Part shown: in pieces, positions 4,066 through 47,030 of the stretch
How the letters are laid out: each line of letters opens with the position of its first letter
Numbering within the stretch: position 1 is the stretch's first letter
Origin: Aureococcus anophagefferens
Lineage: Eukaryota; Sar; Pelagophyceae; Pelagomonadales; Pelagomonadaceae
Assembly (NCBI RefSeq): GCF_000186865.1
Contig: NW_008705562.1
Location: 2,613,670-2,677,669, forward strand
DNA: 64,000 bases
Reading direction: 5' to 3'
The notes under the pieces: generated by a model
Told to the model about the DNA's origin: nothing
What the model saw: only the letters and a program-made list of their open reading frames with translations
The model's database searches: none
Made by a program: the position numbers and the translations under genes

Positions 4066-7000
4066 ATGGACATCTCCAGGAAGCCAAAGACGATGGGAGG
4101 CCTGCGCCTGCTCCTCGTGGCCGCGGCCGCCCGCGCCTACGAAGTCCGCCGCCTCGAAGACGCGACGCTCGTGCCGACGCCCGCGCCGCGACCGCCGGCG
4201 TCGCCCGCGCCGACGACGCACGAGCCATCGGCCGCGCCGACGCCCATCCCGACCCCGTCGTGCATGGACTACGCGGACCACATCTACGGCGGCAAGGTCT
4301 GCGCGACGTGGCTCTCCCAGAGCGGCTGGAGCTGCTTGGACGCGACCTTTGCGCCCGGCGGCGCGCTCGAGGGCCTCTGCGACCGCACGTGCGACTTCTG
4401 CCCCGGCGAGCCGACGGCCGCGCCGACGGGCTGCCCGGAGGACGCCGCCGCCGTGCGCATCGCCGCCTTCCGCGAGCAGGGCCACAAGGGCTGGGGGTCC
4501 AACGTGCTGACGCTCTCGGACGACGCCGCGGCCGTCGCGGCGGAGTACGCGCTCCCGGCGGGCGCGACGGCGGCGTCCGNNNNNNNNNNNNNNNNNNNNN
4601 NNNNNNNNNNNNNNNNNNNNNNNNNNNNNTCTTCGCGCTGCCGACGCGCGGCGACGCCGACGCCTGCGGCGACCAGGCCAAGCTCGTCGCGTCCGTCGGG
4701 GGCCTCGGCACGACGACGCGCCACGCCGTGACGCTGACGACGACGCCCGCGGGCGACGGCGTCGCCGTCGCCAACGCGTCGACGTCGTTCTCCGCCTACG
4801 TCGCCGCGGAGGCCAACGCCTGCAACGGCGCCTACCCGAACGCCTACGTGACGAAGCTCGACGCCGCCTGGACGGCGCAGTGGTCGCCGCCGGTGTTGGA
4901 GATTATGGTGACGGCCGCGGCCTCGTCGCCGACGACGGCGGCGGCGGCGGCCGCCGCCGCGCCCGCCGCCGCGACGAACGGCACCTTCGGCGGCGGCGGC
5001 GACCCGGCGCTCGCCCTCACCTTCGTCGACGGCGCGCCCGCGGTCAACACACCCTACGTCTACCGCCTCGTGGACCTCGCCTACAGCGACTCGTTCGGCG
5101 ACGGCTGGAACGGGGCCGCGCTCACGCTCCGGCGCCGCGGCGCGGACGACGACCTGGCGCTCTACGCGGGCACGCTGTCCCGGGGCCACGGCGCCGTGGA
5201 CGAGGTCCTGCTGCCGTCGGGCTGCTACGACCTCGGCGTGTCCGCGGGGTCCTTCGCGGGCGAGATCTCGTGGTCCGCGTGCGACGCCGTCGTCGGAGGC
5301 GCCGCGCCCGCGAGCACCTACTTCTGCGTCGACGGCGCGGGCGCCTGCGTGGGCCCGTCGGCGCCGCCGACGCCGACGCCGCCGTCCCTGGAGACGTCGG
5401 ACGGCGTGACGGTGTCCTGGGCCATCCTCGACGGCGCGGGCGACTGCGACGCGTCCGCGTCGCTGGAGCTGGCCGTGGGCTCCTGCGCCGTGTCCTGGAC
5501 GCCGAAGATGGACGTGTCGAACCCGCACACCTACAACGCGCGCCACGCGCGGCTCGTCGGCGCGAGCGTCGACGACGACCGCATATCGCGCCACGGCGAG
5601 ATCGCCGTCAGCTTACGGTGGGCCGTCGACGAGGACACCTGGTCGCCCTACGGCGCGGGACAGTGCGAGGCGCTCATGACGCAGACGACGACGTTGACCG
5701 TGGCCTACGACGCCCCCGGTCTCACCGTCGAGGTCGTCAACGAGGTCGCGCGCAACGACCGCGCGAACGGGACGTTCCACGAGCAGTTCGCCGCCGGCTA
5801 CGCGTTAACCGGCCGCGAGGGCAAGTTCGTCGACCGCGCGGGCGAGAAGTCGTCGCTCACGGCCGTCTTCGCCTGCGAGGCGCCCCACCGCGCGAGCGAC
5901 GTCGCCGTGGAGATTTTAGCGGGCGCGGCCGTCGCGCGCCGCGGCGACGACGAGGTCGGCGGCGCGTCCGGCGTCCTGGCCGACGCCGCGGACTGCCTCG
6001 GCGTCTCCGAGCTCGTTTTGGACGTGCTCGACGGCTTCGCGGCGGCGACCTTTTCCCTCTGCGGCACGACGGTGTCGACGGACGGGTCGTGGACCTGCGA
6101 CGGCGCGCCCGCGGCCGTCGCGAGGGACGACCCCGGCGAGCCCGTCGAGGGCGCCGTCGCCATCGGCCCCGCGGGCGGCGGCGGCGGGCGCTGCGCGCGG
6201 ACCTTCGACGCGCCCGTCGAGGCGCGGGGCACGCTCGAGCTCGGGGCGCTGGACGCGAGGGTCGCGGCGGACGGCGCCGTCGTCGCCTGGGGCGCGGCGA
6301 CCGCGTCGCTGCCCACGGACTGCGCCGCGCCGGTCCGGCTCGACGTCGCGACGGCGGCGGGCGGCGCGTTGCCGGCGAGCGCCGACCTCTGCGGCGGGGC
6401 CGCGTCGCTCGCCTGGACCTGCGGCGCCAACGGGACGAACGCGACGACGTGGACCCCGAAGACCGCCGCGGCCCCCGGCGACGCGTGCGCCGCGGTCGCC
6501 CTCCCGCGAAACCCCCTGCCCTGCGGCGACGCGCTCGACGACGCCTACGGCGCGGGCACCTGCGCGGGCCTGGCGGAGCGCATGGCCTGCGCGCGCCAGT
6601 TCTGCCCGGGCTGCCCCTACCCGGGCAGGAAAAATCCCAACTTCGAAGGCTCCTCTCTCGGCCGTTTTCTACTCATTTCGGCTGATTTTTGGACGAGCGA
6701 ACATCTCTCGGAGCGCTGTCGAAGCATGGATGCCTTTTCTGGAACGCGCGCGCGCGCGGACCACTCACGTTGAAGCGACGTTGAATCACCCCGTTCCCGC
6801 CCAGGCCCCCACGCGCGGTCGTGCGACGCGACGTGCGGCTTCTGCGCGGGCGCGACGAGCCCGCCGACGTCCGCGCCGGCGTGCCTCGACGTGAGCGTGG
6901 GCATGTACGACACCTTCGGCGACGGCTGGAACGACGCCTACTACCTGCTCCGCGAGCGCTGGAGCGAGGACGTGGAGCGCGACACGTTCCACGCGTCCGG

Positions 7001-9631
7001 CACGCTGAAGAAAGGGTCGAAGAAGGTGGACCGGCGGTGCCTGCCCTACGGCGGCTGCTACGACTTCAGCGTCACGGCGGGCGCGTTCCCGTCCGAGGTG
7101 CGCTGGGAGCTCTGCGACGCCGCGGGCGGCGCGCCGGAGGACTCGCGCTTCTGCGTGTCCGAGGAGTTCGGCTGCGAGCGGGAGCTCGCGCCGGGCATCG
7201 TCGCGTCCATCGTCTGGACGCCCGTCAACGGGTCCTGCTCGGGCGTCGCCGCGCCGTCCGTGGTCCTCCGCGCGCCCGCGCTCTCCGCGGGCGAGATAAC
7301 TACCGTCGCGCCGTACTTCGAGGACCGGACGTCCGCGGACGCGCGCGGGTCCATCTTCAAGGCCGCGGCGACCATGGACTCCTTCGTCATCAAGTGGGAC
7401 GACGCGCCGCCGGGCGCCGAGACGGACTGCGACATGGACATTGTGGCGACGAGCTCGTGGGCCGCGGCCGTCGTCGGCGAGCAAATCGTCGCCGTGACGG
7501 TCGAGAACCAGATCGGCGCCCTCGACAGCGACGACAACGACGGCGCGGGCGTGTCCCTCGACGGCTACGCGCCCGTCGTCGGGCTCAAGGGCCGGCCCGC
7601 GACGACGACGACGTTCCACTACCGCGTCGCGCGCGTCGACACGTCCGCGGACTGGACGCTCCGGGATCTGGCGAGCGGCGACGTGCTGCACACGACGACG
7701 ACGGACGACCTCGTCCTGGCCGACGGCTGCTACGTGCTCAGCGTGCTCGAGGACGCGGCCTGGAGCCTCTGCGACGGCGTCGCGGCGCCGTCCGCGGACC
7801 CGTCGACGGGCTTCGAGTTCTGCGTCGTCGCGGGGGCGTGTTTGCCGGGCACGCGGCCGCCGACGATGGCGGCGACGGAGGCCGCCGAGGAGTCGGCCTA
7901 CAGCGGCCTCGAGAAGCACGTCAAGTTCGTCGCGCGCGAGCGCGGCGAGCCGTCGTGCTCCGACGCGCGATTGGTAGAAGTCGACGTCTCCGTGGACTTC
8001 GCCGCGCCGAGCTGCGCGTTGACGCTCACGCCGGCCTTCGACGCGAGCCAGGCGACGACCTGGGACGGGCGGCCCCTCGGCGCGGGCCAGCTCTACCGCG
8101 CGGCCTACGACCTGGCGGCGCAGACGCTCGAGGTCCAGTGGGAGGACCACGGCGACCACGCGGACTGCGAGATGGACCTGACGGAGGAGCTGCGCTGGAG
8201 CGCGAACTACGCCTACCCGACGCTGACGGTCACGGTCGACGCGGCCGTGACGGCGCTCGACGGCGCCGCGGGCCTCGCCGCGGGCTACGAGGTGGCGCCC
8301 GGCGGCTACGGCCCCCAGCTCTTCCCCTTCCAGGAGCCCGTCGCCTGGACCCGGGAGCAGTTCCTCGTGGACTGCGCCGTCGCCGGGTCCCTCGGCGGCG
8401 CGTCCGCGTCCGTCCGCGCCGCGAACGGCTCAGGGCAGGACAAGGGTGATTCAACGTCGCTTCAACGTGAGTGTTCCGCGCGCGCCCGTTCTGGAAAAAG
8501 CATCCACGCTTCGAGACCGCTCCGAGAGATGATCGCTCGTCCAAAAATCAGCCGAAACGAGTGGAAACCGGCCGAGAGAGGAGCCTTTGAAGTTGGGAAT
8601 TTCGCACTCTTGTCCTGCCCAGGAACGGCTTCGAGCTCTTCGTCAACGGCGTCTTCGTGCGCGCGGCCGCGGGCTGGGCGTCGACTTTTGAGGTCGACGC
8701 GCTGCCCGTCAAGTGCGACGGGTCCGACGTGCTCGCCGTCGCCGCGGACGCGGGCGCGGGCGTCTTCGGCCTCGCGGCGACCTTCGACCTGCCCTGCGCT
8801 TCCGTCGCCACGTCCGACCGCTGGGCCTGCGACGGCGACGGCGGCGGCTCCTACGACTGGACGCGCCGGGGCTTCGACGACTCCGCCTGGGCCCGCGCGG
8901 CCGTCTTGGAAGAAGACCGCGCCGCCCACCTCGACGCGTTCCCGGCCCCGGAGGGCGCCGCGTGGCTCTGGACCGCCGGCCGCGGCTTCTCGCAGGAGTC
9001 GCGCGTCCGATGCCGCTTCGTCGTCGCGGCCCTCGACCCGGCGTCGCCGCGGCCGACGCCCGCGCCGTCGCGCGCGTCGACGCCGAAGCCGTCGCCGGAG
9101 CCGTCGCCCGCGCCCGCGTCGCCCGCGCCGACGCCCGGCCCCGCGGGCGCGCCCGGCCCGACGTCGCGCGCGCCCGCCCCCGCGCCGTCGGGCCCGCCGT
9201 CGCCCGCGCCGACCGCGCGGCCCGCGGCGCCCGGCGCCGCGGCCGACGACGACGACCGCGGCTCGACGAAGGAGGCGACCGCGGGCGCGACGAAGATCGT
9301 CCTCGCGCTCCTCGGCGGCGTCGCGGTCCTGGGCCTCCTCGCCTGCTGCGCGAAGAAGCTCGGCCCGCGGCTCCTGCCGGCCCTCGCGCGCGCGCGGACG
9401 TCCATGTCCGGGTCGGAGAATCGCGCGCGCCGCTTCGAGACGGAGCTCAACGAGATGATGCTCCCGGGATCGTTCTCGCCCCTCCGCGGCGACGAGCCGC
9501 CGCCGGCGCGCGACCCCGACTCGGGGCGCAACAAGTTCTCCGAGCGGCTCAAGGCGCTCCACCGCGGCGACCCGGACGAGCCGTCCTACTTCGCGCCGCC
9601 CGCGAACGAGGACTCGGGCCTCGCCGTCTAA
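4066..9631 (+). CDS. Large secreted, membrane-anchored GDGWN/ShKT-repeat protein (three exons, one internal gap)
   Basis: Likely exons are 4066-6612 (interrupted by N at 4580-4629), 6805-about 8422 and 8623-9631. The start is MDISRKPKT; an internal Met at 4093 begins a signal peptide MGGLRLLLVAAAARA. A Thr/Pro linker follows, then a cysteine pattern like ShKT domains (SCMDYADH ... CDRTCDFC); a second such pattern is split by the first introner (CARQFC ... CDATCGFC). Two clear modules carry DSFGDGWNG (about 5087) and DTFGDGWND (about 6906), each closing with GCYD.x.V.aGsF.sEi.W. Partial related units lie before the gap (GHKGWGSNVLTL) and near 7610-7770. The last exon has a Pro/Ala-rich stalk, a transmembrane helix (KIVLALLGGVAVLGLLACC) and a cytosolic tail. 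Frame 1 before the gap and frame 0 after it are expected because the N count is arbitrary. Role unknown; a cell-surface or matrix protein is likely. Confidence 0.75.
4580..4629. other. Assembly gap (50 N)
   Basis: Fifty unresolved bases inside the first exon of the secreted GDGWN protein. The reading frame differs on the two sides, so the true gap length is not 50, or it hides an exon boundary. Confidence 0.98.
6621..6804 (-). mobile_element. Introner family 1, copy A (antisense to gene)
   Basis: A 184-bp element. Its left end CCGGGCAGG and right end CCCGCCCAG are decayed versions of the family inverted repeat (CWGGGCAGGACAAG). Flanks are GCCCCTAC (6613-6620) and GCCCCCAC (6805-6812), an 8-bp target duplication with one mismatch. 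Removing 6613-6804 (192 bp, GC...AG) restores the frame as ..GGC TGC CCC CAC.. and rejoins the ShKT cysteine pattern. The internal sequence (GGCTCCTCTCTCGGCC, TTTCGGCTGATTTTTGGACGAGCG) is shared with copies B-D. The element contains an in-frame stop, so it must be spliced. Confidence 0.9.
8431..8622 (+). mobile_element. Introner family 1, copy B (sense to gene)
   Basis: A 192-bp element with ends CAGGGCAGGACAAG and CTTGTCCTGCCCAG, a 14-bp inverted repeat with one mismatch. It is flanked by perfect 8-bp duplications GAACGGCT at 8423-8430 and 8623-8630. Exact excision of 200 bp (8423-8622) joins SVRAANGFELFVNG in frame but would need a GA donor. A GC donor at 8435 also keeps the frame and adds three residues. 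A perfect GTGAGT lies 35 bp inside the element, but using it breaks the frame. Confidence 0.9.
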
Positions 9632-9643
9632 GCGCGGGCTTTG

Positions 9644-10204
9644 TTACTGCTGGGCCGCCTCGTCGAGGTCGACGACGGGCTCCTCGTCGCCGGCCTCGCT
9701 CGGCGGCGCCGAGCCGCTCCCGGAGCCGGACGCCGCGCTCCGGCTCGGCGACGACCGCGGCGCCGCGGGCGCGGGCGGCGGGGGCACGCACGCGAGGTCC
9801 ACGAAGCCCACGATGGGGTGGAGGATGTGGGCGGCGCCCTGGCGCTCCGCGACGACGACGCGCGCGTTCGGCGGCAGCGCGCCGACGACCGCGGCGTCGG
9901 CGTAGCGGTCGTCGCGGACCGTCGCGGCCGCGAGGAGCGCCGCCGGCGCGCCGAGCAGGTCCCCGAACTGGTCCTCGAGGTCCCGAATGGCCACGTCGTA
10001 GATGTGGAGCTGGTCCTCGAGCCGGTCGCGCTTGTCGCTCCGCGCGTTCTGCCGCCGCCGCAGCTCGGGCAGCAGCGTCGCGATGCGCTCGCGCTCGACG
10101 ACGAGCTTGTCGATCTCCGCGTCGCACCGCTCCCGGTCCGCCTTGCACCGGCCGAGGGCCTCGCGCAGCGGGTTCAGCGGCGACGGCGTGCAGGCGTAGG
10201 ACAT
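9644..10204 (-). CDS. Coiled-coil protein with SH3-like C-terminal motif
   Basis: A 186-residue protein. Residues 1-80 form a charged coiled coil (REALGRCKADRERCDAEID, LRRRQNARSDKRDRLEDQL). Residues about 108-142, GALPPNARVVVAERQG through HPIVGFVDLA, match the SH3-like tail of the 110-residue protein at 3478-3810 in spacing and most hydrophobic positions. The C-terminus is Ser/Pro/Gly-rich and acidic (EEPVVDLDEAAQQ). The gene converges on the GDGWN gene with only 12 bp between stops. Function unknown; a small adaptor or structural protein is plausible. Confidence 0.65.
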   Translation of the reverse strand: MSYACTPSPLNPLREALGRCKADRERCDAEIDKLVVERERIATLLPELRRRQNARSDKRDRLEDQLHIYDVAIRDLEDQFGDLLGAPAALLAAATVRDDRYADAAVVGALPPNARVVVAERQGAAHILHPIVGFVDLACVPPPPAPAAPRSSPSRSAASGSGSGSAPPSEAGDEEPVVDLDEAAQQ

Positions 10205-10885
10205 CGTGGAACAGCCAAGAGCTGGGCAGCCAGCGTCTCGATGGTCGTCCTTGTCGTCCTACTTCTAACTAGGGCGCTCGGCCGCGGCGCTCGGCGCGCC
10301 CGCCGGCGGCCCGCCGGCGCGAAAGTGCCCGCGCTCGAGCCCGGCCGCCGCCGGACAGAGGCGCCGCGCGGCCGACCAACTTCCCCCGCCCACGAGACGT
10401 GCGAGGCGACTGGTCGTATACATCAGGGCACTTCGTCAGCGCGCGCGCGCCGGCGTCCGGGCCGCGGCCGGCGAAGTGCGGGTGGAGAGGCACGGTGTCG
10501 CTTTCGGGAGGAGTGTGGGGGAGCAATGATCGGGGGTGGTGTTTTTTCTGGTGTTTCGTGTGGCTGTCGGCCGGCGCGGGGCGCGGCCGCGTTTTCTGTT
10601 GTTTCTGGATTTTTTCGCCGTTCGCGGAGCCGGTCGTGCGGCGCGGAGCGCGCGTCGCCCTCGGCTTTGTGGGCGCGGGGCGCGTCGCGGGTGCGCGGGT
10701 GGCCTTGGGTCTTGGTGCGGCGCGCGGCGCCTCGGGCCGGGGGGTCGCGCTCCGCCGCCGCGGCTCCGGGAGCGGGTTCGTTTTTTCGTTTCGTCGTAGC
10801 GGGGACCGCCGCGCGGATCGGGCGCGGTCGTGAGAGTGTCGATGCGAGGGGGCGAGGGGCTTTTGGGGGCGGGGGCGCGCCCCGT
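10205..10885. other. Spacer between two minus-strand genes
   Basis: About 680 bp. It should hold the promoter of the coiled-coil gene (start 10204) and the 3' UTR of the exchanger (stop 10886-10888). The stretch around 10500-10830 is G/T-rich on the plus strand. A 144-codon frame at 10399-10833 has Arg/Gly/Trp-rich composition unlike the real genes here, so I do not call it coding. No repeat or RNA gene is seen. Confidence 0.6.
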
Positions 10886-12757
10886 TCAAGAGATGGACTT
10901 GAACGTGATGGACACGGCGAGGAAGAGGAAGTAGAGGGAGAACATGACCAGCCCGAGCTTCAGGTCCAGCGTCCAGTTGTTCCTCATGACGCTCAGCACG
11001 ACGAGCGCGACCATGCTGAGGAGCATGATCGTGTCGAAGGCGATGCCCGTCGTCGAGAAGTCCCAGCTCGCGTTCTTCAGCGGGTTGCCGATGATCGCGA
11101 CGACGAGGTACTTCGTCAGCGTCGGCACGGGGAGGCCGACGAGGATGTCGAAGACGTTGGAGCCGATGGACGACGAGATGGCCATGTCGCCGCGGCCCTC
11201 GCGCGCCATGTACATGGAGCTCAGCGCGTCGGGGATCGACGTGCCCGCGGCGAGCACCGTGAGGCCCATGATGTAGTCGCCGATGCCGACGACCGAGCCG
11301 ATGATCGTCGTCCAGACGACCATCATGTACGCGAAGACGACGAGCCACATGAGGGACCCGGCGAAGGTGCCGAGGAACCACTTCTTCTTGTCGGGGTGCG
11401 CGCAGTCCGGGAGCGTGCCGTAGAGGCAGACCTTGAGCGGCGCCGCGACGATGAAGAGGATCCGGTCCGGCGCGTCGTCGGGCCAGGCCCAGGGGTCCTC
11501 CCACTCGTCCTCGTCCTCCTCCTCGCCGCCCTTGGCCTCCTCGCCGCCGTTGGCCGCCTTGTCCGCGGCGCCGGGCCCGTCGGGGGGCACGCTGTCGTAG
11601 ATCTGCTTCGAGTAGACGCCGACGCCCGCGCCCGCGTCGGGCCCGGGCGACTCGGCGGCCTCGACGCCCTCGGCGTCGCTCGGCGCGCCGCCGCCCGACG
11701 CCGCGACCTCGACGGTCGTCGCGCCGCCGTCGGACGCGGCCTTCTTGGCCTCCGCGGCCGCGCGCGCGATCGACGGCCGGTCCTCGCCGCCGGGCCGGAC
11801 CTTCGCGTTCTTCTCCATGCCGAACTGGCGCGTCGTGAAGATCTCGAGGGGCTCGTTGTAGGCCATGATGGTCACGTAGCAGAGGTAGAGGAGGAAGAGG
11901 ATGAGAGCCTCGTACCAGACCATGGACTCGTCGGACACGCAGGCCGCGAGCACGAGCAGGCCCATGATGTAGTAGGAGCAGTCGCGGAAGAGGGGCCACC
12001 ACGTGAGCGGCAGCGCGCCGCCGGGCACGACGAGGGCGCACATGCCGATGACGAAGAGCACGTTGAAGACCGCCGACCCGACGATGGTGCCGAAGCCGAT
12101 GTCGGACCGCGACACGAACTGTCCCATGAACGACGTCGCGAGCTCCGGCGCGGACCCGCCCGCGGCCATGAACGTCGCGCCCGCGACGTCGTCGTCGATC
12201 TCCCACTTCTCGACCATGCAGTCCAGCGCCGGGCCGAAGAAGTTGTCGCAGACGATCATGAGCGCGAGGAACATGTAGCAGACGCCGAGCACGTGGAAGA
12301 CGACGAGCGGCGAGTTGCCGTGCTGGTTGCCCTTGCCCTTCTTGTGGATGAAGGCGTCGCCGACCCAGAACGGGTTCTTCTCCTTCTGCTGCTGCGCGTT
12401 CTTGGCGTGGCTCAGGGACCGGGGCGACCGCTCCCCGAGCCTCGGGCGGTCGGGCCCGGGTTCGCCGTCCCGGAGGTCGGCGCCGCCGGGGGCCGGGGGC
12501 GCCCGGGCGGCCCCGGCGCCGGCCGGGGGGTCGCGCGCGCGCGCGTCGCCGCCGTCGCTCCCCGCCGCCGCCCGCAGACTCCTCCCGGGCCCTATCCTCG
12601 GGCCGCGCGCGAGCGTTGAAAGGTCGATAGCGAGGGCCACGGCGAGAAATCCGCCCATCACGCAGAGGAGGCCCCGGGAGCGGAACACCCGCTGTCGTCG
12701 TCGGCCCCGGCACGGCCGGGGCTCACGCCCGCAGGCGCGCGCCACCGCCACCTCCAT
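10886..12757 (-). CDS. K+-dependent Na+/Ca2+ exchanger (NCKX / SLC24 family)
   Basis: A 623-residue membrane protein if translation starts at MEVAVARACG (12757); the frame is open upstream but reads like 5' UTR. The first hydrophobic segment (LLCVMGGFLAVALAIDL) is a signal anchor. The two alpha-repeats that form the ion-binding site are clear: ATFMAAGGSAPELATSFMGQ in the N-terminal half and LTVLAAGTSIPDALSSMYMA with SSIGSNVFDILVGLPVP in the C-terminal half. The acidic residues in GGSAPE and GTSIPD are the cation ligands in this family. Between the halves lies a long cytosolic loop rich in Ala/Gly/Glu, ending in EEEDEDEWEDPWAWPDD. It exports calcium in exchange for sodium at the plasma membrane or an internal membrane. 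No introns are needed. Confidence 0.93.
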   Translation of the reverse strand: MEVAVARACGREPRPCRGRRRQRVFRSRGLLCVMGGFLAVALAIDLSTLARGPRIGPGRSLRAAAGSDGGDARARDPPAGAGAARAPPAPGGADLRDGEPGPDRPRLGERSPRSLSHAKNAQQQKEKNPFWVGDAFIHKKGKGNQHGNSPLVVFHVLGVCYMFLALMIVCDNFFGPALDCMVEKWEIDDDVAGATFMAAGGSAPELATSFMGQFVSRSDIGFGTIVGSAVFNVLFVIGMCALVVPGGALPLTWWPLFRDCSYYIMGLLVLAACVSDESMVWYEALILFLLYLCYVTIMAYNEPLEIFTTRQFGMEKNAKVRPGGEDRPSIARAAAEAKKAASDGGATTVEVAASGGGAPSDAEGVEAAESPGPDAGAGVGVYSKQIYDSVPPDGPGAADKAANGGEEAKGGEEEDEDEWEDPWAWPDDAPDRILFIVAAPLKVCLYGTLPDCAHPDKKKWFLGTFAGSLMWLVVFAYMMVVWTTIIGSVVGIGDYIMGLTVLAAGTSIPDALSSMYMAREGRGDMAISSSIGSNVFDILVGLPVPTLTKYLVVAIIGNPLKNASWDFSTTGIAFDTIMLLSMVALVVLSVMRNNWTLDLKLGLVMFSLYFLFLAVSITFKSIS

Positions 12758-13288
12758 GGCGTCCCTCAACAGGCAGTGGCCGCTGAGCAGCCCAGCCTCG
12801 CGTTGTTGGACGGGAGTGCTTTGTGGAGCGCCCGGTAGATTGAGATACGTAGATACGTCGCCGGGAAACATGGGCTTTTGCCGATAGACGTCGACGGGAT
12901 TTGAGGCGGGACGCTCGATTGCGCGGGTCCAGCGTCGTCCAGCGCCTCCGCGCGGGCGCGCCACGGGTCGCCGCCGCGCGACGGCCTCCCCCGAGGAATC
13001 GCCCTCGGCGGCGCGCTTGGCCGCGCTGTGTTCTGAGGTACGGGGACGGACGATGCTTCGGGCTTGGACGTCGGCGCGGCGCGGCTGCGGATGTGTGCGC
13101 CGGCGCGCCGTCGGTGCCCAGGCCAGACGCCGAGAGGCGACATGTCAGGCGCCGCCGACGACGGCCGATCGGGGCCCCGGTGTAATCTTTTGTCCGTCGG
13201 ACAAAGGATTGGTCCTCGCGAGACGGCCGAGACGCCGCGCGCATGGGCGTCGACTCCAGCCCTTCATGAGAGCCCCGGACGACGTTGA
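12758..13288. promoter_or_regulatory. Bidirectional spacer between exchanger and CAF1 genes
   Basis: 531 bp between divergent starts. Several short open frames occur on both strands, but none has family similarity or consistent composition. The segment GAGATACGTAGATACGTCGCCGGG near 12842 contains a short repeat (GATACGT twice). No TATA-like box is obvious. Confidence 0.5.
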
Positions 13289-14516: not shown

Positions 14517-14772
14517 GCGTGTCGTCCGTCGTCGTGTCCCTGTGTCCTCTCCGTGCTTCGCTCGCGCCTCTCGCCTCCGCCCACGCGGGGGCGCCCGACA
14601 AAAACAAACCTCGATCCTCGCGATCCCGGACGGCGCCGACCGCCGCGTGCTCCGCGGCGCGAGGCGCCTTTCCGGCAACCAATACCGACGCGCGCGACGC
14701 CGCCCTAACGGACGACTGACCGCGCACACGCGGACGGGTGTGGGGGCTCATTTCGAATCGAGATCGCGCCGG

Positions 14773-30155: not shown

Positions 30156-31589
30156 ATGGCCGCCTTCGCGCCGTCGGAGCTCGCGATTTACACGCCCGCC
30201 GGCAAGCGCGCGGCGCGCGACGACGCGGCGGCGCAGTGCAGCGTGGCGCGCAGCACGCAACCAGAGCACAAAGAGCAGCTCGGCGCCCTCGACGCGCAGT
30301 TCGCCGGCGGCTACCCGTCGATCGTGGAGCTCTTGATCGTGTTGCCCGACCACGGCATCGACGCGGCGCGCTTCGTCGCCGCCGCGACGGCGGCGGCGCG
30401 GGCGTTCCCGGGCTCCGCCGCGCGGCGCGACGGCGCGTCGCTCGCGGGCGACGCGGGCGTCGCCGTGTCCATCGTCGAGGGCGATCACGCCACGCCGGCG
30501 CCGCACCGCCTCTTCGGCGCGCCCGGCGGCGGTATGAGCCTCCGCGTCGCGAACGGCGCGGACGGCGCGACGGTCGGCGTGCGCTTCGACCACGCGCTCT
30601 GCGACGTCTCCGGCGCGGCCCTNNNNNNNNNNNNNNNNNNNNNNNNNNNNNNNNNNNNNNNNNNNNNNNNNNGCGCCGCCGACGACGCCGCGGCGTGCGC
30701 GGCGCGCGTCCGCGCGGCCGTCGACGGCGGCGACGCGTTCCTGGCCGACTCGCGGCGGCCGAGCGACGTCCACCTCACGTCCTGGTGCGTTAGACGCGAC
30801 GTCCGCTTCGGCGCGTCGGACTGCGCCTTCGCCGTGGGGCCGGGGACCGTCGCGACGGCGGCGCGGTTCTCCGCGCTCCGCGGGGGGCAGCCCGTGGCCA
30901 CGGTGCTCCCGGGTTATCGCGGGGGCCTCCGCGTGTCGGTCGTCGCGCCGACGGCGGTCGCGACGAAGCTCCGCGGCCTCCTCGCGGCGACGCCGCGCGC
31001 TCCGAGGGCCGCGCTCGTCTGGCTCCACGGGCTCGGGGATGTTTCGGACCGCTGGCGGACCCACTTCGAGCGCGCGCTCCCGGGCGTCGAGCTTCGCTTC
31101 CCCGCGGCGCCGCCGCGGCCCGTCGCCGCGAGGGGCGGCGAGACCATGCCGTCCTGGTTCGACCTCGAGACGTGGCCCGTGAGCGCCGACGAGCCGGCCC
31201 CGGACCTCGACGGCGCGATCGCCGCGGTCCGCGACGCCGTCGACGCGCTCGGCGTCCCGCCGGGCCGCGTCGTCGTCGGCGGCTTCAGCCAGGGCGGCGC
31301 CGCCGCGATCGCGGCCGCGCTCGCCGCCGCCGCGCCCTACGCGGGCGTCGTCGCCGTCTCCGGCTGGTGCGCCCAGCGGCCGCCGCCGCCGGCCGCGCTC
31401 CCGCGGCTCTTCTTCTCCGCGGGGACCTCGGACCCGGCCGTGACCTTCAAGCTCGCGAGGCGCTCGGGCCAGCTCCTCGCGGCCCTCGCGCGCGAGCCGG
31501 CGGTCTCCCACGTCCAGCGCGCGAAGCACGACCCGACGCCGGCGGAGCTGGCCGCCGTCGACGGCTTCATTCGCGACGTGTTGCGCTAA
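30156..31589 (+). CDS. BAHD-type acyltransferase fused to acyl-protein thioesterase/carboxylesterase (one gap)
   Basis: A single frame on both sides of a 50-N gap. The N-terminal ~280 residues resemble BAHD acyl-CoA transferases: IVELLIVLPDHGIDAARFV... then VRFDHALCDVSGAA with the catalytic H-x3-D (HALCD) just before the gap, and after it TSWCVRRDVRFGASDCAF, in the position of the family DFGWG motif. The last ~190 residues are a phospholipase/carboxylesterase domain: ALVWLHGLGDVSDRW, the nucleophile GGFSQGG, VAVSGW and a final KHDPTPAELAAVDGF where the family has its histidine region. The fusion point (near residue 285) lies well downstream of the gap, so it is not an assembly artefact of the N run. 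The gene converges on its neighbour with 7 bp between stops. Confidence 0.75.
   Translation: MAAFAPSELAIYTPAGKRAARDDAAAQCSVARSTQPEHKEQLGALDAQFAGGYPSIVELLIVLPDHGIDAARFVAAATAAARAFPGSAARRDGASLAGDAGVAVSIVEGDHATPAPHRLFGAPGGGMSLRVANGADGATVGVRFDHALCDVSGAAXXXXXXXXXXXXXXXXXXAADDAAACAARVRAAVDGGDAFLADSRRPSDVHLTSWCVRRDVRFGASDCAFAVGPGTVATAARFSALRGGQPVATVLPGYRGGLRVSVVAPTAVATKLRGLLAATPRAPRAALVWLHGLGDVSDRWRTHFERALPGVELRFPAAPPRPVAARGGETMPSWFDLETWPVSADEPAPDLDGAIAAVRDAVDALGVPPGRVVVGGFSQGGAAAIAAALAAAAPYAGVVAVSGWCAQRPPPPAALPRLFFSAGTSDPAVTFKLARRSGQLLAALAREPAVSHVQRAKHDPTPAELAAVDGFIRDVLR
30623..30672. other. Assembly gap (50 N)
   Basis: Fifty unresolved bases inside the BAHD domain, right after the HALCD motif. The frame is the same on both sides. 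Confidence 0.98.
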
Positions 31590-37216: not shown

Positions 37217-37344
37217 CCACTGAGATGACGACGAGCTGCGGTCAAATGCGCCCAAGGCGCCTCATCGATCGCGCGCTGCGGCACTATGACTTCACTTCTT
37301 GGTTGCTTGTACATTCAAGGACGGCTCGTTCGGTGCCCGACACG

Positions 37345-38752: not shown

Positions 38753-38877
38753 GGGCGGGCGGCGCGCAGATACCATGCCAGTGGAGTACCATATCGCCGG
38801 CGCGCGGGATTCCTCGAGGAGCGGGACCGCGACGCGTACGTGCTGCGGACGTATGTTGATTACTTGCGAGTGTACTA

Positions 38878-40002: not shown

Positions 40003-40295
40003 CTCGACGCGCCGCGTGGCAGACGTGCACTAGACGCGCGCGGGAGTGTCGCCCGTTCGGATCACCGGCGGCCACCGAGCTACGCCACCGTCGGGGCCGT
40101 CGGGGATGGCTGCAAGAGACTTGGTGGGGCTGCAAGAATCCAGGCCTGAATCCACAAGTGCTTCAAGTCTCGCTTCACTTGAGGTTCACTTAGGCCCCGG
40201 GGAGCTCGAGGCTCGGATTGTCCGGTGACCCCGGGGGATGTGCGCTGCTGCTTTCAGAGCCATCAATTGCTGCGCTGTTCATCAACAAACAACAG

Positions 40296-41816
40296 TTACG
40301 CGGCGGGTCGCATAGCGTAGCGTAGCGTAGCGGCGGGAATCGCGACGACCGATCCGCCGGATCGCGCGGAGGCCATCGCCGCGTCCATGATCGCGTGGGC
40401 GAGGAGCATCGCGCGGTCGTAGTGGTCCGTCCGATTCTTGCCCTGGGCGACGAGCGCGGCGAACGCGTCCCACATGCGGACCTCCTGGCAGCAGTTGAGC
40501 ACGGGGACGTCGGTGACGCAGCCGCGGACGATCGTGTCGTACTCGCTCATCTGCTCGTCGGGGATCTCCTCGATCCGGTACTCGCACCGCTCCTCGCGCC
40601 GCGGGATGACAAAGTCGTCGCAGGTCACGCGCCGACCCGTCGCCGAGCACGCCTCGACCCACTGGCGCAGGTGGTGCCGGAAGCTGCAGTGGAACGTGAG
40701 CACGCGGCGTCCGTCCTCGCCGATGTGGACCTCCACGTCCATGTCGGTCGGCACGCCCTCGCGATCCGCGCGCGAAAACGCCCTCACCGCCGTCGGCCGC
40801 TCGTGGCGGAACGCCGCGAGGCCGTAGCGGATGCAGTACCAGCCCACCTACACAAAAAACGGCGTCGCGTCCTCCCTCGCGCGGCGCGGCGATGGCGCGG
40901 AAGGAAGGAAGTCCGGTCAGTCTATGGGTGGTAAGTCTCTCGTCACGCGTTCGTCGGACTCGAAAGATGGTGATTGATTATGGTGAGTCGTCATTCCGGA
41001 GGCGGCGTGGTAGAAAACGGACGCGGGCGGCGCGCGTCGCCGAGGCAGCCGAGCGGGTCGCCGTCCGGCCGCGTGCGGATGTCGCCGCCGTTCATGAACT
41101 GCGACGGGGGAAAGGGGTTCGACGCGGGGCCTTTCGGGCGCGGAGGGAACGCGCGCGCGCGCGTCGTCGTCGACCGATCGGATCGCCCACCGAAACGCTG
41201 GCTTGTTAATAGCGCCGGGGGCTCGGTCTATTCAGAGTCGATCATTTGGGGAAAGAAGAAACTTCTTGAGTTCGTCACTTCGGTCGGAGGGGGCGTCGAA
41301 CGTTTCCGGGACGCGGGCGCGCGCGGCCTCGTCGCCCCAGAACGTGAAGGCCGAGCTCACGCGCGTCGGGGCCCAGAACTGCTCGTCGGCGAAGAGGCGG
41401 TCCATCTGCTCGAAGCGCGCGTGATGCACGAACATGGTGCCGTCGAGGAGCGCGACGCCCGCCGCGCGGCACGCGTCGACCATGGCCCGCACCTCGGCCG
41501 CCGTCCGCCCGACGGGCTTCTCGACGAGCACGTGCTTGCCGGCGGCCGCGGCCTTGACCACGAAGTCGAGGTGGAGGCTCGTCGGCAGCGGCACGTAGAC
41601 GGCGTCGACGTCCGCCGCGGCGAGGAGGTGCTCGTAGCCCTCGACGCAGCGGCAGGAGGCGCCGAAGCCCAGCTCGGCGACCCAGGCCTCGGCCTTGGCC
41701 AGACTGCGCGACGCCACGGCCACGAGCGAGCAGCGCTCGCTGCGCCGGATGGCGCGCGCATTCTTTTTGGCGATGGACGCCGCGCCCACGATGCCGACGC
41801 GCACGACGAGCGGCGA
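40296..41816 (-). CDS. Gfo/Idh/MocA-family oxidoreductase (three exons, 5' end in gap)
   Basis: Exons in transcript order: from the gap at 41816 to about 41325, 41098-41036 and 40847-40296. Exon 1 gives VRVGIVGAASIAKKNARAIRR (Rossmann loop), ADVDAVYVPLPTSLH and VLVEKPVGR with the family EKP lysine. The small exon 2 encodes FMNGGDIRTRPDGDPLGCLGD and exon 3 starts VGWYCIRYGLAAF; together these match the family segment where a GD-x-GWY stretch follows an NDIR-like motif. Exon 3 ends with a helix VRMWDAFAALVAQGKN and YDRAMLLAHAIMDAAM. This layout fits plant/algal dihydrodiol-dehydrogenase-like members, which oxidise sugars or cyclic alcohols with NAD(P). The exon 2-3 intron (40848-41035) must use a GC donor. 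The exon 1 end could be 41325 or 41328. Confidence 0.8.
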
Positions 41817-42251
41817 NNNNNNNNNNNNNNNNNNNNNNNNNNNNNNNNNNNNNNNNNNNNNNNNNNNNNNNNNNNNNNNNNNNNNNNNNNNNNNNNNNNN
41901 NNNNNNNNNNNNNNNNNNNNNNNNNNNNNNNNNNNNNNNNNNNNNNNNNNNNNNNNNNNNNNNNNNNNNNNNNNNNNNNNNNNNNNNNNNNNNNNNNNNN
42001 NNNNNNNNNNNNNNNNNNNNNNNNNNNNNNNNNNNNNNNNNNNNNNNNNNNNNNNNNNNNNNNNNNNNNNNNNNNNNNNNNNNNNNNNNNNNNNNNNNNN
42101 NNNNNNNNNNNNNNNNNNNNNNNNNNNNNNNNNNNNNNNNNNNNNNNNNNNNNNNNNNNNNNNNNNNNNNNNNNNNNNNNNNNNNNNNNNNNNNNNNNNN
42201 NNNNNNNNNNNNNNNNNNNNNNNNNNNNNNNNNNNNNNNNNNNNNNNNNNN
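41817..42251. other. Assembly gap (435 N)
   Basis: Unresolved sequence that contains the start of the Gfo/Idh/MocA gene and its promoter. It is larger than the two 50-N gaps, so its length may be a real estimate. Confidence 0.98.
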
Positions 42252-42349
42252 CGAGTCCGAGTCGCCCGCGGCCAAGACCCAGGCCACGGCCTCCACCGGC
42301 GACGTCGACCGACGCCCCCCCGCGCCCCGCGCCGGATCGACCCGGGCGC

Positions 42350-43922
42350 TTAGAGCCAGCCCGCCGTGAGCTCGTGGAGCCAGAAGGGGAAGAAGGCGCG
42401 CTCGACCGTCGGCGGCGGGTCCCGCGCCGCGAGGTCCGCCCACGCGGCGTCGAGGAGCGCGGGCGTCACGTCGGCCCAGGACTCGATCTCGAGGCGGGGC
42501 GCGGTTCCGTAGAGGTCGCCGTGGGCCGGGAAGCGCTCGAGCACGGGCACGGCGCCGAGGAGCACGGCCTCCCACTCGCGCATGCACGTCTGGCCGATGC
42601 CGCGCGGCGCGGCCGCGAACTTCGAACCCCGCAGCGCCGCGAGGTAGGCGCCGACGTCGGGCTTGAAGTCCCAGGTGCAGGCGCCGAAGCCGTTGGCCCG
42701 CAACGCGTCGAACTTCTCCACGCGGCCCGGGTGCGCGGCCATGAACGAGCAGACGAGCGGCGCGGCCCGGCCGTCGCGCGTGCTCGCGTTCGCGTAGGTC
42801 GTCGCCAGCCAGGACGCCCAGGACGCGTGCTTGACGCCCTGGGCCAGGGGCCGCACGTTCGACGGGCAGGGCTGCTTGACCCTCGCGTCGACGACGTTCT
42901 GGACGAACGCGGCCGCGACGACGGCGCGGTCGAGGCAGCCGTCCGCGCGGCAGAGCGGCGGCGACCCGCCGCAGAGAGCATCGTGGTAGATGCCGCCGTC
43001 GCCGCCGCCGACGACGGTGACGGGGCTCGGCAGGTGGGCCGCGGCCCACTGCACGTGCTCCCGCAGGTAGTTCCCCGGCGACGTGAAGAGGAGCGTCGCG
43101 TTGACGCGCGGCGCCCGGAAGGTCTCCAGGGGCACGGCCGCCCGGACGGGCTTGCGGTCGTTTGCGCGCGCCGCAATCTCCGGCCGCGGCGACGCGCGGA
43201 GGCCCGCGGCCGTCTTCTCGAACTCGACGGCTCTCACGTGCGCCGCGGCCTGTGTGGAAATCAAATCTTCAACTCGACTTCAATGTGAGCGTAATTGAAT
43301 GGTTTGGACCAGACTTTTTGGCTGTACTTCGAGAACCCGACGAGAGCAATCGATTCGTCCAAAAATCAGCCGAATCGACTTCGATTTGACCGAGCTAAAG
43401 AATTTCAAAGTTTGGTCGGGACGTCCCAAACCAGTGGTTGATTTCCACACAGGCCGCGGCCGTCGCGGCCGCGTAGCGCGGCGACCCCGGCGCCAGCAGG
43501 TTGCTCTTGCCGCGGAATTCGACGTAGTAGTGGGCGAGCGTCGCCACGCGCGAGTTGACGTTGAGCACGGACTCGGGCGGCAGCTCGTCGAGGCCGGACC
43601 GCTTGACGTGTTCGAACGTGAACTTGTCGCGCGGGTGGAGCTCGGCGTTGGCGCGCATCCAGAGCTCGTGGTTCCGCCGGAGGCCGAACTCGTCGAGCCA
43701 GAAGATCATGCAGCATCGGAAGCAGCACTGGACGCGATCGAAGGCCACGGACCAGGCGGGGATCGGCGTCGCGAGGCAGGCGTGGGCGTAGGCGTTGTGG
43801 CGGTCGTCGCAGCGGCGGGCGTCGTCGCAGGGCTGCGGCGACGCGAGGCAGGCGCCGACGTCCTCCTCGGCGGCGAGGCGGGTGAGGAGCAGGCCGGCCA
43901 GCCATGAGGCGCGTCGCACCAT
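42350..43922 (-). CDS. Exostosin/GT47-like glycosyltransferase (two exons, introner between)
   Basis: Exons in transcript order are 43922-43461 and 43249-42350 (453 residues). MVRRASWLAGLLLTRLA is a signal peptide or anchor, followed by a cysteine-rich segment (CLASPQPCDDARRCDDRH). After the join AAATAAA-HVRAVEF the protein has strand-turn motifs (VTVVGGGDGGIY, APLVCSFMAAHPGR). Its end, FAAAPRGIGQTCMREWEAVLLGAVPVL followed by ESWADVTPALL, is the nucleotide-sugar-binding signature of exostosin-type transferases: a PRG box, then a Glu in REWEA, then a W-x-D/E loop. It is probably a Golgi type II enzyme making cell-surface glycan. The exact activity is unknown. Confidence 0.75.
43250..43452 (-). 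mobile_element. Introner family 2
   Basis: A 203-bp element with perfect 15-bp inverted ends CTGTGTGGAAATCAA / TTGATTTCCACACAG. It is flanked by perfect 8-bp duplications GCCGCGGC (43242-43249 and 43453-43460). Removing 43250-43460 (211 bp on the minus strand, GC...AG) joins the two exons exactly in phase 0. The end sequence is unrelated to family 1, but the interior shares CTTCAATGTGAG and TCGTCCAAAAATCAGCCGAA with it, so the two families have a common ancestor or swapped ends. Confidence 0.9.
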
Positions 43923-43982
43923 CGCGTCGAAGCAGCCTGCAACTTGGCTGCTCCGTCGACTCCTTTGCCTCGCCGCAGAAGC

Positions 43983-44870
43983 ATGGCCAGCTCCGTCATG
44001 ATCGTGCTCGGCCTCTGCGCCAGCGCTGCGGCGTTCCGCGTGCCAGGCGGTGCCGCGAAAGCACCACTCAGCGCGTCCTGCGCCACCGCCTTCCGCGTGC
44101 CGGGCGGCGCCGCACGCCCGGCCACCGCGCTGCGCTCCGCGACGATCACCGACGAGGCCCGGGCGCTCCGCGCCGACGGCCTCTACGCCGCCGACCGCCA
44201 CGTGACGACGTCGCGCTTCCTCGTGCCGCGCGACGAGCAGGTCGCCTTCGAGCAGTCCTGGGTGGCCAAGGCCGACGCTTTGCGGGACGCGCCGGGCCTG
44301 ACGTACTTCCAGATGTCCAAGTACGCCGCGGACTTCATGGGGCCGCCGCTCGGCGACGACGAGCCCAACTACCACGCGTACGCGGTCTGGGAGAGCGCCG
44401 AGGCCGCGGCCGCCTTCGACGCCGGCGGCGGCCGCCCCGCGACCTACGACGGCCTCTTCTCGCTCGCGCTCCCCGCGGAGGCGACGGGCGTCCCGCCGCC
44501 GGCGCGCGCCGTCGACGCGGAGAAGCGCCTCCCGCGCGAGGCCTTCGTGGCGTCGAACCGCTTCGGCATCAAGCCGGGCTTCGAGAAGCAGTTCGAGGAC
44601 ATGTGGGCCGGCCGCGACTCGTCGCTGGCCGACCTGCCGGGCTTCGTGAACTTCACGCTGCTCCGCCGCGAGGGCGACGTCGACGACGGCAACACCTACG
44701 TGTCCTACACGACGTGGAAGAACGTCCAGGCCTTCAACAACTGGCGCGGCAGCGACAACTTCAAGCGGTCCCACTCCGGGCCGAAGCCCGCGGAGTCGCC
44801 CTACGCGAAGATGCCCAAGGTCGTCACCTACAAGACTTTCCTCACGTGCGGCGCGGCGGAGGGCATGTAG
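43983..44870 (+). CDS. Plastid-targeted protein with two antibiotic-biosynthesis-monooxygenase (ABM) domains
   Basis: A 295-residue protein. MASSVMIVLGLCASAAAF-RVPGG is a signal peptide with a Phe right at the predicted cleavage site, like the ASAFAP motif used for plastid import in stramenopiles. RVPGGAA appears twice in the following transit part. Two dimeric alpha+beta-barrel domains follow: VTTSRFLVPRDEQVAFEQSW ... YHAYAVWESAEAAAAF and VASNRFGIKPGFEKQFEDMW ... NTYVSYTTWKNVQAFNNW. The second resembles IsdG/HmoB-type haem-degrading monooxygenases (Asn, then Trp in the WxxxxAFNNW segment). A role in haem or tetrapyrrole turnover in the plastid is inference. It is divergent from the glycosyltransferase with only 60 bp between starts. 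Confidence 0.8.
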   Translation: MASSVMIVLGLCASAAAFRVPGGAAKAPLSASCATAFRVPGGAARPATALRSATITDEARALRADGLYAADRHVTTSRFLVPRDEQVAFEQSWVAKADALRDAPGLTYFQMSKYAADFMGPPLGDDEPNYHAYAVWESAEAAAAFDAGGGRPATYDGLFSLALPAEATGVPPPARAVDAEKRLPREAFVASNRFGIKPGFEKQFEDMWAGRDSSLADLPGFVNFTLLRREGDVDDGNTYVSYTTWKNVQAFNNWRGSDNFKRSHSGPKPAESPYAKMPKVVTYKTFLTCGAAEGM

Positions 44871-44935
44871 CTACTACGAGGGGCCTCGCGGGTGTTAGTG
44901 TGCATGATATGTCGCGCGCGGGCCGGTCGTCGGGA

Positions 44936-47030
44936 TCAGGAGAGGAACGTGGTGCAGAATTTTTCGAGCGCGACGTCCGCGAGCGTGTCCGCGAGCTCCG
45001 CGGGCGTCGCCGGCGGCGGGAGGTCCGCGGCCGCGCGCGTCGCGGCGTCGAAGGACGCGCGCCAGATGTCGTCGGGCGAGAGGAGGGGCGCGCCCTTGTC
45101 GCTGTGGAGCGCCCACGCGGCGTCGAGCGGCGCGAGCGGCAGGGGCACGGGCAGCGCGTGGCCGTTGCCGAGCATGCGCTCGAGGTCGACCTTGGCGAAG
45201 GCGACGACGCCCGACGCCGCGAGGACGTCGTCCGGGTCGACGGCGTCGTTCGCGAGCGCGTCGACGACGTCCTTGGCCGAGACGACGTGCGTCGCCTTCG
45301 ACGCGTCGTCGCCGCCCAAGGGCAGGCGGTCGCCCTTGTCGCCCGCCAGGGGCCCGCGCTTGAGCCAGACGACGCCGCCCGCCGCCGTGCGCACCTGGAC
45401 GTCGCCGCCGAAGGCCACCGTCTTCGACCGCTCGCCGCCCTTGTCGAGGCGGAGCGACACGCGGCGCTTCGTCGGCCGGTTCAGCACGCAGCCGATGACC
45501 AGGTCCTGCTGCACGGCGATGATCTGCACGAGCGACTTGTGGAGGAACTGCTTGTCGAGCAGGAAGTCCGCGCCCTTGACGTTCTGGCACGCGAGGAGCG
45601 CGCCGGGGATCACGGAGCCGTCGCGCGCGACGGCGCCGAGCGCCTGCTCCCTGCGCGCCTGGTGCCGCGACGCCTCGAGGAAGGAGTCGGCGTTCATGAC
45701 GGGCGCGTCGAGCTTGTTGTCGATCCAGGCCCGGAGCATCAGGTCGTCGAAGTCGTTCGTCGCCGCGGACTTCTTGGCCGCCGTCGCGACGGACGCCTCG
45801 CGGCCGATGTTCGTCATCAAACTCCGCCAGCACTCCAGGCCGTCGTCCAGCGGAATGTCGCCGTCGGCGCCGCGCTGCTTGTCCTGGAGCTCGCGGACCA
45901 ACGTCGCGCCGTCCGTCGCGGCGACGTACCTGGGCAGCACAAGAGTGATTCAACGTCGCTTCAATGTGAGTGTCCCGCGCGCGCGCGTTACGAGAAAAAC
46001 ATCCACGCTTCGAGACCGTTCCGAGAGATGATCGCTCGTCCAAAAATCAGCCGAAACGAGTAGAAAATGGCCGAGATCGGAGCCTTTGAAGTTGGGAATT
46101 TCGCTCTCTTGTCCGTCGCGGCGACGTACCACGAGTGGCGCTCGAGCTCGCCCTCGAGCTGCTTCGGCGCCCACCCCGCGTAGCCGCAGATGCACACGAA
46201 GTCGTCCTTCTCCGCGACGCCGGACGCCACCGCGGCCTTGGCGTCGCCGAACGACGACGTCCACAGCCCGTTGCCGACCTTGCGGCAGGACTCGGACCCG
46301 GGGAGCTCCTCCGTGCTCAGGCACTCGATGGACGGCGGCCGGCCCGCGCCGGGTTTGCCCAGCTTGTGCGCGGCGAAGAGGCCCCCCTCCTCCACGTCGC
46401 CGCCGCACCACAAACTCCAGCCGTCGACCTCGCGGCGGCTCGGCCTGGGCAGCAAAAGGGTGCGAAATTCCCAACTTCAAAGGCTCCTCTCTCGGCCGGT
46501 TTCCACTCGTTTCGGCTGATTTTTGGACGAGCGATCATCTCTCGGAACGGTCTCGAAGCGTGGACGCTTTTTCTGGAACGCGCGCGCGCGGAACACTCAC
46601 GTTGAAGCGACGTTGAATCACCCTTGTCCTGCCCTGGGCTCGGCCGGTTCACGATGACGCCGCGCGTGAACGCGTCGTCGTACTGCGTCAGGAGGAGCAC
46701 GCACTTGTGGAAGTACTGCTGCCGCAGGCCGAAGCCGAACTCCTGCTCCACGCCGCCCAGGAGCACGCAGCCCTGCTCGAGGAGCGGCGTCTCGTACGCC
46801 CACCCGGCGCCCGCGGCCTCGCGGTCGGACCCGACCTCGAGGCCCTCGCCCTGCGTCCGCGCGATGAGCCGCGCCCGGAAGTCGCGGAAGTCCTCCGTCA
46901 GCTCCGCGGGCTCCTCGTCGTCCTCGCCGCTGCGCAGGGCCGCCAGCTTTGTCGGCGTGTGCGGCGCGACGAAGGCGCAGGCCAGCGACGACCGGAGCGC
47001 CGCGGCCGTCGCGATCAGGGCGGCGCGCAT
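44936..47030 (-). CDS. Plastid-targeted tandem AlgH/UPF0301 (DUF179) protein with two introners
   Basis: Exons in transcript order are 47030-46645, 46444-46130 and 45929-44936 (564 residues). The N-terminus MRAALIATAAALRSSLACAF-VAPHTP is a signal peptide followed by an ASAFAP-like motif (ACAFVAP), so plastid import is likely. Two AlgH/DUF179 domains occur: the first has GCVLLGGVEQEFGFGL..FHKCVLLLTQY and VIVNRPS, with WCGGDVEEGG; the second has GALLACQNVKGADFLLDKQFLHKSLVQII and VLNRPTKRR, with FGGDVQ. DUF179 is single-copy in bacteria (YqgE), with unknown function. Both introns are family 1 introners in opposite orientations; spliced frames are exact at NRP-SRREV and RHSW-YVAATDG. Confidence 0.87.
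45930..46121 (+). mobile_element. Introner family 1, copy C (antisense to gene)
   Basis: Left end CTGGGCAGCACAAG is a normal terminal repeat. The right end should read CTTGTCCTGCCCTG but reads CTTGTCCGTCGCGG, identical to the flanking gene, so the direct duplication grew to 20 bp (45911-45930 and 46111-46130). The underlying 8-bp target duplication is CGACGTAC. On the gene strand this is GTACGTCG, giving a canonical GT donor. The intron is 45930-46129, 200 bp. Confidence 0.88.
46445..46636 (-). mobile_element. Introner family 1, copy D (sense to gene)
   Basis: A 192-bp element with ends CTGGGCAGCAAAAG and CTTGTCCTGCCCTG. It is flanked by perfect 8-bp duplications GGCTCGGC (46437-46444 and 46637-46644), GCCGAGCC on the gene strand. 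The intron 46445-46644 is 200 bp with a GC donor. Using the downstream GT (AAGG-GTGATT) would break the frame, so GC is required. Confidence 0.92.

Follow-up and report, generated by a model that had tools for sequence, protein, structure and literature searches.

Predicted introners in three genes of Aureococcus anophagefferens, and a one-base polarity at the ends of one of their two families

A stretch of 64,000 nucleotides (nt) of the genome of Aureococcus anophagefferens (contig NW_008705562.1 of assembly GCF_000186865.1, positions 2,613,670 to 2,677,669; hereafter the window) contains five short elements that interrupt three genes (A, B and C) and that are very probably introners, a kind of small DNA transposon that is not autonomous; they have inverted repeats at their termini and an 8-base-pair (bp) target duplication, and would borrow a 5′ splice site from the target and bring their own 3′ splice site. 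The introner system of this alga is already known. A possibly novel feature is that, in the first of the two families described here, the base at position 2 of the terminal repeat differs between the two ends of the element.

Five elements in the window

The original prediction had singled out four copies of one family, and sequence comparison agrees: the copies at 6621-6804 (184 bp), 8431-8622, 45930-46121 and 46445-46636 (192 bp each) show 86-95% pairwise identity over 172-196 bp, with BLAST E-values from 1e-52 to 6e-88 within the window. The 6621 and 8431 copies, which are the sole two window copies in the set for which divergence was measured, differ from the family-1 consensus by 12.4% and 3.2%, respectively. 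As had been claimed, an 8-bp duplication flanks each of the four; in gene sense it reads GCCCC[T/C]AC (one mismatch) for the 6621 copy, GAACGGCT for the 8431 copy, GTACGTCG for the 45930 copy and GCCGAGCC for the 46445 copy. The direct repeat around the 45930-46121 copy reaches 19 bp (45911-45929 and 46111-46129), because target sequence replaces the first bases of the upstream inverted repeat. In another copy of the genome, in locus L077, the sequence next to the target site likewise takes the place of the upstream inverted repeat, and the direct repeat is 13 bp long, not 8.

A fifth element, at 43250-43452 (203 bp), had been overlooked. Its core is related to that of family 1, its inverted repeat is different (CTGTGTGGAAATCAA), and its duplication is GCCGCGGC; it is referred to here as a member of family 2. 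When the whole window is searched for the two cores with at most 3 mismatches, these five elements are the only ones returned, so that the four insertions in two genes become five in three. The absence of copies from the spacers holds for all five.

Removal of the elements restores the genes

Gene A lies on the forward strand, and its part 3′ of an assembly gap (4580-4629) extends over 4632..9631, with exons ending at 6612 and then spanning 6805-8422 and 8623-9631, in frames +0, +0 and +2. Its first predicted intron, 6613-6804 (192 nt), would consist of copy 1 of the target duplication (GCCCCTAC, 6613..6620), which provides the first eight bases and a GC 5′ splice site, and of the introner 6621..6804, inserted on the reverse strand with the Y end upstream and a CCCAG end; copy 2 of the duplication (GCCCCCAC, 6805..6812) remains in the exon. 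The second predicted intron, 8423-8622 (200 nt), would start with copy 1 of GAACGGCT (8423..8430, GA 5′ splice site) and continue with the introner 8431..8622, on the forward strand, which has CAGGG upstream and CCCAG downstream; copy 2 is at 8623..8630.

Gene B (44936..47030, reverse strand) codes for a DUF179/AlgH-like protein of 564 amino acids (PF02622, E-value 3.3e-25) with exons 47030-46645, 46444-46130 and 45929-44936. The predicted intron 46445-46644 (200 nt) would be made of copy 1 of GCCGAGCC (46637..46644, GC 5′ splice site) and the introner 46445..46636, with CAGGG upstream and CCCAG downstream, copy 2 being at 46437..46444. In the other one, 45930-46129 (200 nt), copy 1 of GTACGTCG (46122..46129) would give a GT 5′ splice site and the introner 45930..46121, in which the inverted repeat on the gene-5′ side is the replaced one, a CCCAG end; copy 2 is at 45922..45929 and belongs to the direct repeat that reaches 45911. 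Gene C (42350..43922, reverse strand, 453 amino acids, exons 43922-43461 and 43249-42350) has a weak RXYLT1_C-like match under the Pfam cut-off. Its predicted intron, 43250-43460 (211 nt), would comprise copy 1 of GCCGCGGC (43453..43460, GC 5′ splice site) and the family-2 introner 43250..43452, with CTGTGTGGAAATCAA inverted repeats at both ends; copy 2 is at 43242..43249. All the introners of genes B and C are on the reverse strand, as are their duplications, whereas the duplications of gene A are read on the forward strand. The predicted introns end in CCCAG in family 1 and in CACAG in family 2.

A codon-usage scan, with a codon table derived from eleven open frames in the window, finds a coding frame on both sides of each element, and the frame is kept on removal at 5/5 sites; the frame change at each site corresponds to one target copy plus the element (192, 200, 200, 200 and 211 nt). 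When spliced at the predicted coordinates, genes B and C run from ATG to stop (564 and 453 amino acids), and gene A gives 1535 amino acids without a stop from the assembly gap to the end of the gene. The first exon region of gene A is uncertain, because this run of N (4580-4629, 50 nt) falls in the 5′ part of the gene. The other runs of N in the window are at 30623-30672 (50) and 41817-42251 (435).

The predicted spliced proteins were compared with 5.8 billion proteins, the 8000 candidates with the most shared words being scored in each search. Gene B aligns with the outside protein P0001 (564 amino acids) at 562/564 identical positions, gene C with P0115 at 440/453 and gene A with P0122 at 1499/1535; the three alignments are gapless and cross every junction, that is both junctions in genes A and B and the single one in gene C. 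No named A. anophagefferens protein is among the matches scored for the three spliced proteins; the named relatives among them are other algae, such as Pelagophyceae sp. CCMP2097 and Chrysophaeum taylorii.

Copies in the whole genome

The original prediction had called for a genome-wide search for the family. In the 49.05 megabases (Mb) of the 86 contigs searched, the strict full-length pattern of family 1 has 708 matches, spread over many contigs, and none in a control with the reversed pattern, so that the four-copy family of the window is not a product of chance. The family-1 end pattern (at most 2 mismatches) has 2329 matches compared with 4 in the reversed control, and the end pattern of family 2 has 2171 compared with 9. 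The full-length family-2 pattern with T at both ends, which is palindromic, has 190 matches (380 strand hits).

A set of 83 distinct family-1 copies, which includes all four of the window, was studied in detail. Since the copies examined were found by pattern or by similarity, the sample favours intact ends. Their inverted repeats are about 14-16 bp long, and the duplication is perfect in 66 copies, has one mismatch in 11 and more mismatches in 6 (77/83 with at most one mismatch). In the 75 copies whose polarity is assigned and whose duplication has at most one mismatch, the first base of the duplication is G in 75/75, and the first two bases are GC in 41, GT in 33 and GA in 1.

The frame test was applied to 81 of these copies, that is all but the window copies 45930 and 46445 (locus L001). 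Among the 76 whose polarity could be assigned, 72 lie in sequence that codes on the predicted strand and whose two flanks share one frame once the copy is removed. For random points of the window, this test finds a single strong frame shared by both flanks, whichever the strand, in 1066/1598 cases. The intron phases 0/1/2 are 16/1/15 for GT introns and 10/16/13 for GC introns; intron phase tracks codon make-up. In family 2, the copies of L073 and L089 being left aside, 8/8 copies tested are in sequence that is coding on one strand and in one frame, and their interior points one way in four and the reverse way in four.

Two composite loci were seen among the copies. In L071, two family-1 elements (1256-1441 and 1501-1692) are 59 bp apart; if one target copy is assigned to the intron, this leaves a predicted micro-exon of about 51 nt. 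In L089 (292-1036), two family-2 elements are separated by about 350 bp, and the right end of the first is decayed; the apparent 745-bp element at this place results from pairing the outer ends of the two.

The original prediction had also concluded that intron gain is active. Recent activity is indeed supported by near-identical copies (11/3240 copy pairs differ at 1-2 positions when the ends are masked), by the perfect duplications and by the uninterrupted outside proteins. The part of the argument based on the clustering of insertions in two genes carries little weight: three genes are affected, and the matches are spread across many contigs of the genome.

Relation to known introners

The introners of A. 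anophagefferens, as described by Huff et al. in 2016, are said to be a textbook case, in which one splice site is reportedly carried by the element and the other is borrowed. That the host is A. anophagefferens is supported by the phosphate-transporter primers of this species (PMC3237563), each of which has one exact match; the two enclose a fragment of 141 nt, the published length, at 467182-467322 of contig 4. The size of the genome can be compared with that of strain CCMP1851, given as 49.9 Mb with 70.5% guanine plus cytosine (PMC11237714).

The identification as introners is supported by the anatomy of the copies, and the remark that such elements are known from Aureococcus fits the host, which is Aureococcus itself. 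The comparisons that follow rest on the passages that concern introners in the papers cited; the introners of A. anophagefferens are mentioned in PMC10228655, PMC7789003 and PMC9860276. They are described as having direct repeats as well as inverted repeats of constant length (PMC7789003) and as inserting in both orientations (PMC10228655), and the same is seen here. A peak at about 210 bp is given as characteristic of them (PMC9481584), and the introns predicted here are about 200-211 nt long. The introners of Symbiodinium microadriaticum (Gozashti et al. 2022, PMC9860276) also have target duplications, inverted repeats, a carried 3′ splice site and a borrowed 5′ one, but this is a different organism and the duplication is 4 bp long instead of 8. 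The family 4 introners of Aureococcus sp., from a TARA metagenome-assembled genome (PMC9860276), resemble ours in the genus and in the 8-bp duplication; in those, however, both splice sites are carried by the element and the transcript becomes 12 nt longer, whereas the introns described here are predicted to leave nothing. Canonical splicing motifs are stated for the introners of A. anophagefferens (PMC7789003), which differs from the 42/75 copies that start with GC or GA in our set. GC and GA 5′ splice sites reach up to 50% and 40% in introner families (PMC9860276), to be compared with GC in 41/75 here, and selection against badly spliced introner copies is described in the same paper.

In short, the predicted introns are many and near-identical, in unrelated genes of one genome; they appear to be insertions into coding sequence that can be removed without change of the protein; and, as in the DNA-transposon introners of Aureococcus, one splice site would be carried by the element and the other would come from the duplication.

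Proposed mechanism

The insertion duplicates 8 bp of the target, and the duplications are observed. The first target copy, whose first base is G and whose second is C, T or, in rare cases, A, would act as the 5′ splice site, while the downstream end of the element itself (e.g. CTTGTCCTGCCCAG) would act as the 3′ splice site: this end consists of a pyrimidine-rich tract followed by CAG, which allows the end of a transposon to serve at the same time as a 3′ splice site. The original coding sequence is restored when target copy 1 and the element are taken out together, as seen from the frames and the outside proteins; that it is the spliceosome which removes them is what we infer. Family 1 would work in one direction only, since its T end gives AG and its A, G or C end does not. 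Family 2, in which each end gives AG, would work either way round.

The transposons of the hAT superfamily have as hallmarks an 8-bp target duplication and an end that begins with CAGGG, the consensus of the end being CA..G. The family-1 introners have in common with them the 8-bp duplication and a CAGGG-type end, which points to cut-and-paste movement by a transposase of the hAT type. Unlike hAT ends, one or both ends here have T at position 2 of the repeat: compared with this consensus, family 1 has CAGGG at one end and CTGGG at the other, and family 2 has CTGTG at both. A hAT-type end that reads ...CCCTG outward would need no more than one A-to-T substitution to become a 3′ splice site, ...CCCAG.

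A search of the genome for hAT domains gave 4 hits of 22-24 bits (cut-off 21.4). Two of them belong to a hAT-like transposase gene that is found at G000:C1:941196-943040 and at C13:597450-599294 (L040, L041, L073, L074), inside a 5.4-kilobase (kb) stretch which is 99% identical on both contigs; complete introner copies are present within a few kb, upstream of this stretch (L073, L074). A search for 8-bp duplications combined with inverted repeats around the C1 gene gave 15 weak candidates, compared with 3, 4 and 2 in three shuffles, and none of the 15 has introner ends. A 90-amino-acid piece of the same transposase, 99% identical, occurs within an open frame of 4294 amino acids on C25 (342628-342897). 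No introner end brackets either of the other two hits in the 3-kb loci in which this was checked; one hAT-domain hit is adjoined by minisatellite-like CATAGCAGG repeats (L039:790-1260). Regarding viral carriers, two exact patterns have 0 matches in viral contigs, among which records close to the genome of the window may be absent.

Arguments for and against splicing introners

Several observations weigh against the identification as spliced introners. Splicing is here a prediction from sequence, and GC and GA 5′ splice sites together reach 42/75 copies, which makes proof at the RNA level desirable. The frame test failed for 4/76 of the copies with assigned polarity, and 5/81 have no assigned polarity. 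The proteins P0001, P0115 and P0122 may derive from spliced transcripts or from alleles that are free of the insert; the boundaries of what is removed agree in both cases. The contigs from which they come are 1727 bp long for P0115, 6135 bp for P0122 and, for the longest one of P0001, 12,494 bp; these lengths do not decide between the two origins, although 12.5 kb is long for a single gene B transcript. Last, no autonomous element with introner ends was found in the hAT-domain search, which was the only one made, other transposase families not having been searched, and the C1/C13 gene was not retained as a partner: introner ends do not bracket it, even though introner copies are nearby.

The elements could be ordinary miniature inverted-repeat transposable elements (MITEs) that disrupt genes and are not spliced, a proposal with which the inverted repeats and target duplications are compatible. 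We give it next to no credence: the frame is continuous at 5/5 window sites and in 72/76 family-1 and 8/8 family-2 copies tested, the outside proteins are uninterrupted across all five junctions, and the G at the first base of the duplication in 75/75 copies has no reason in an unspliced element. Spread through RNA, in which an excised intron is reverse-spliced into another transcript that is then copied back to the genome, would fit the fact that 72/76 polarity-assigned copies are in coding sequence and in the splicing orientation, none of the other 4 having been shown to lie in a spacer. We consider this route highly improbable, since reverse splicing predicts neither the inverted repeats nor the duplication, by each copy, of 8 bp of its own target (77/83, with at most one mismatch), and since the first 8 bases of the intron are specific to the target and do not come from a donor intron.

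One-base polarity at repeat position 2

The original prediction described a terminal repeat, CWGGGCAGGACAAG, that is the same at both ends. Perfectly symmetric ends were rejected: at position 2 (W), the downstream end carries T, whereas the upstream end carries A or, in rare copies, G or C. The direction of family-1 copies was assigned from the T-bearing end (outward ...CCCAG), and at the non-T end 69 of the 76 polarity-assigned copies have A, 6 have G and 1 has C; it is important to note that the absence of any end-to-end match at position 2 (0/76) is by construction, because polarity was assigned from that base. The position of the T end on the coding-3′ side in the 72 copies with a clear frame is, on the contrary, independent of the assignment. 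Furthermore, 12 copies in loci that had been fetched for other reasons are all polarised: opposite the end with T, 10 of them have A and 2 have G.

In genome-wide counts, which likewise do not depend on the assignment, both-T and both-A patterns account for 7/708 and 0/708 of the family-1 matches; the remaining 701 are obtained by subtraction and were not read individually, and the pattern allows only A or T at position 2. Both-T copies were rejected as a class after inspection of the 7 matches. L075, L076 and L079 are ordinary A/T copies whose duplication ends in CTGGG; L077, in which the 13-bp direct repeat replaces the upstream end, and L080 and L081, which have an extra base, are not clean, and L078 is the sole clean both-T copy. 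In family 2, T is present at both ends in the 190 matches, compared with 4 matches that have A at one end, both-A not being counted.

Away from this base, the two ends of a copy are mostly alike, and the interior occurs in either orientation. Among 78 polarity-assigned family-1 copies, the interior is oriented one way in 36 and the other way in 42. Repeat positions 9 and 11, which vary among copies, agree between the two ends of a copy in 67/76 and 69/76 cases (38.5 and 39.7 expected), as would be expected from exchange inside the repeat, and the ends seem to exchange or to co-evolve; position 15 mostly follows the interior. On a weakly supported tree of 81 family-1 copies, for which the outermost three columns of the alignment were left out on either side, there are 8 changes of polarity, compared with a mean of 25.4 and a minimum of 18 when the labels are shuffled, which suggests that polarity is mostly inherited, with some switches.

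The upstream end of family 1 may stay non-T because the transposase requires it, because it was inherited in this form, or because of RNA structure. It is quite possible, if somewhat short of an even chance, that the direction in which an intron-making transposon works depends on one base, which would have been changed at one end in family 1 and at both ends in family 2, transposition being balanced against splicing at this base across hundreds of copies within one genome. Opposite ends of family 1 would then have been changed in different lineages, or the interior would have been flipped by exchange inside the repeats, and something would hold the other end back.

There is nearly an even chance that the A/T rule is instead a mere inheritance from two polarised founders, under no present constraint. 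Polarity follows clades in the tree (8 changes compared with 25.4), and the two orientations are also distinct at sites in the interior (e.g. alignment column 180), both of which fit two founders. About 8 changes are still required, on a tree that is weakly supported; positions 9 and 11 match between the ends, yet only 7 both-T and 0 both-A patterns are found among the 708; and both-T copies, which could be spliced either way, would be expected to spread as they do in family 2, yet they are nearly absent. RNA structure offers another reason for keeping the upstream A: a T would pair with the 3′ splice site in the RNA and hide it. In folding calculations, the terminal AG has a mean unpaired probability of 0.60 as found and of 0.05 once base 2 is changed so that it pairs, the value being lower in 64/66 copies. 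This explanation is nevertheless unlikely, being weakened by family 2, whose AG is itself paired within a stem (over 8 copies, a mean unpaired probability of 0.03) and which yet has the same signs of splicing.

As for the novelty of a position-2 polarity, the passages on repeats and splice sites in the introner literature cited above contain no text on it, a comparison that does not extend to the founding paper.

Significance

The introners of A. anophagefferens are among the clearest answers to the old question of the origin of introns, and the present data contribute independent checks from reading frames, from outside proteins and from counts across a genome with long contigs. Should the one-base polarity prove both new and real, it would represent the minimal change that turns the end of an ordinary transposon into a splice site, and the two families would offer a natural comparison, within one genome, of a one-way and a two-way intron maker.

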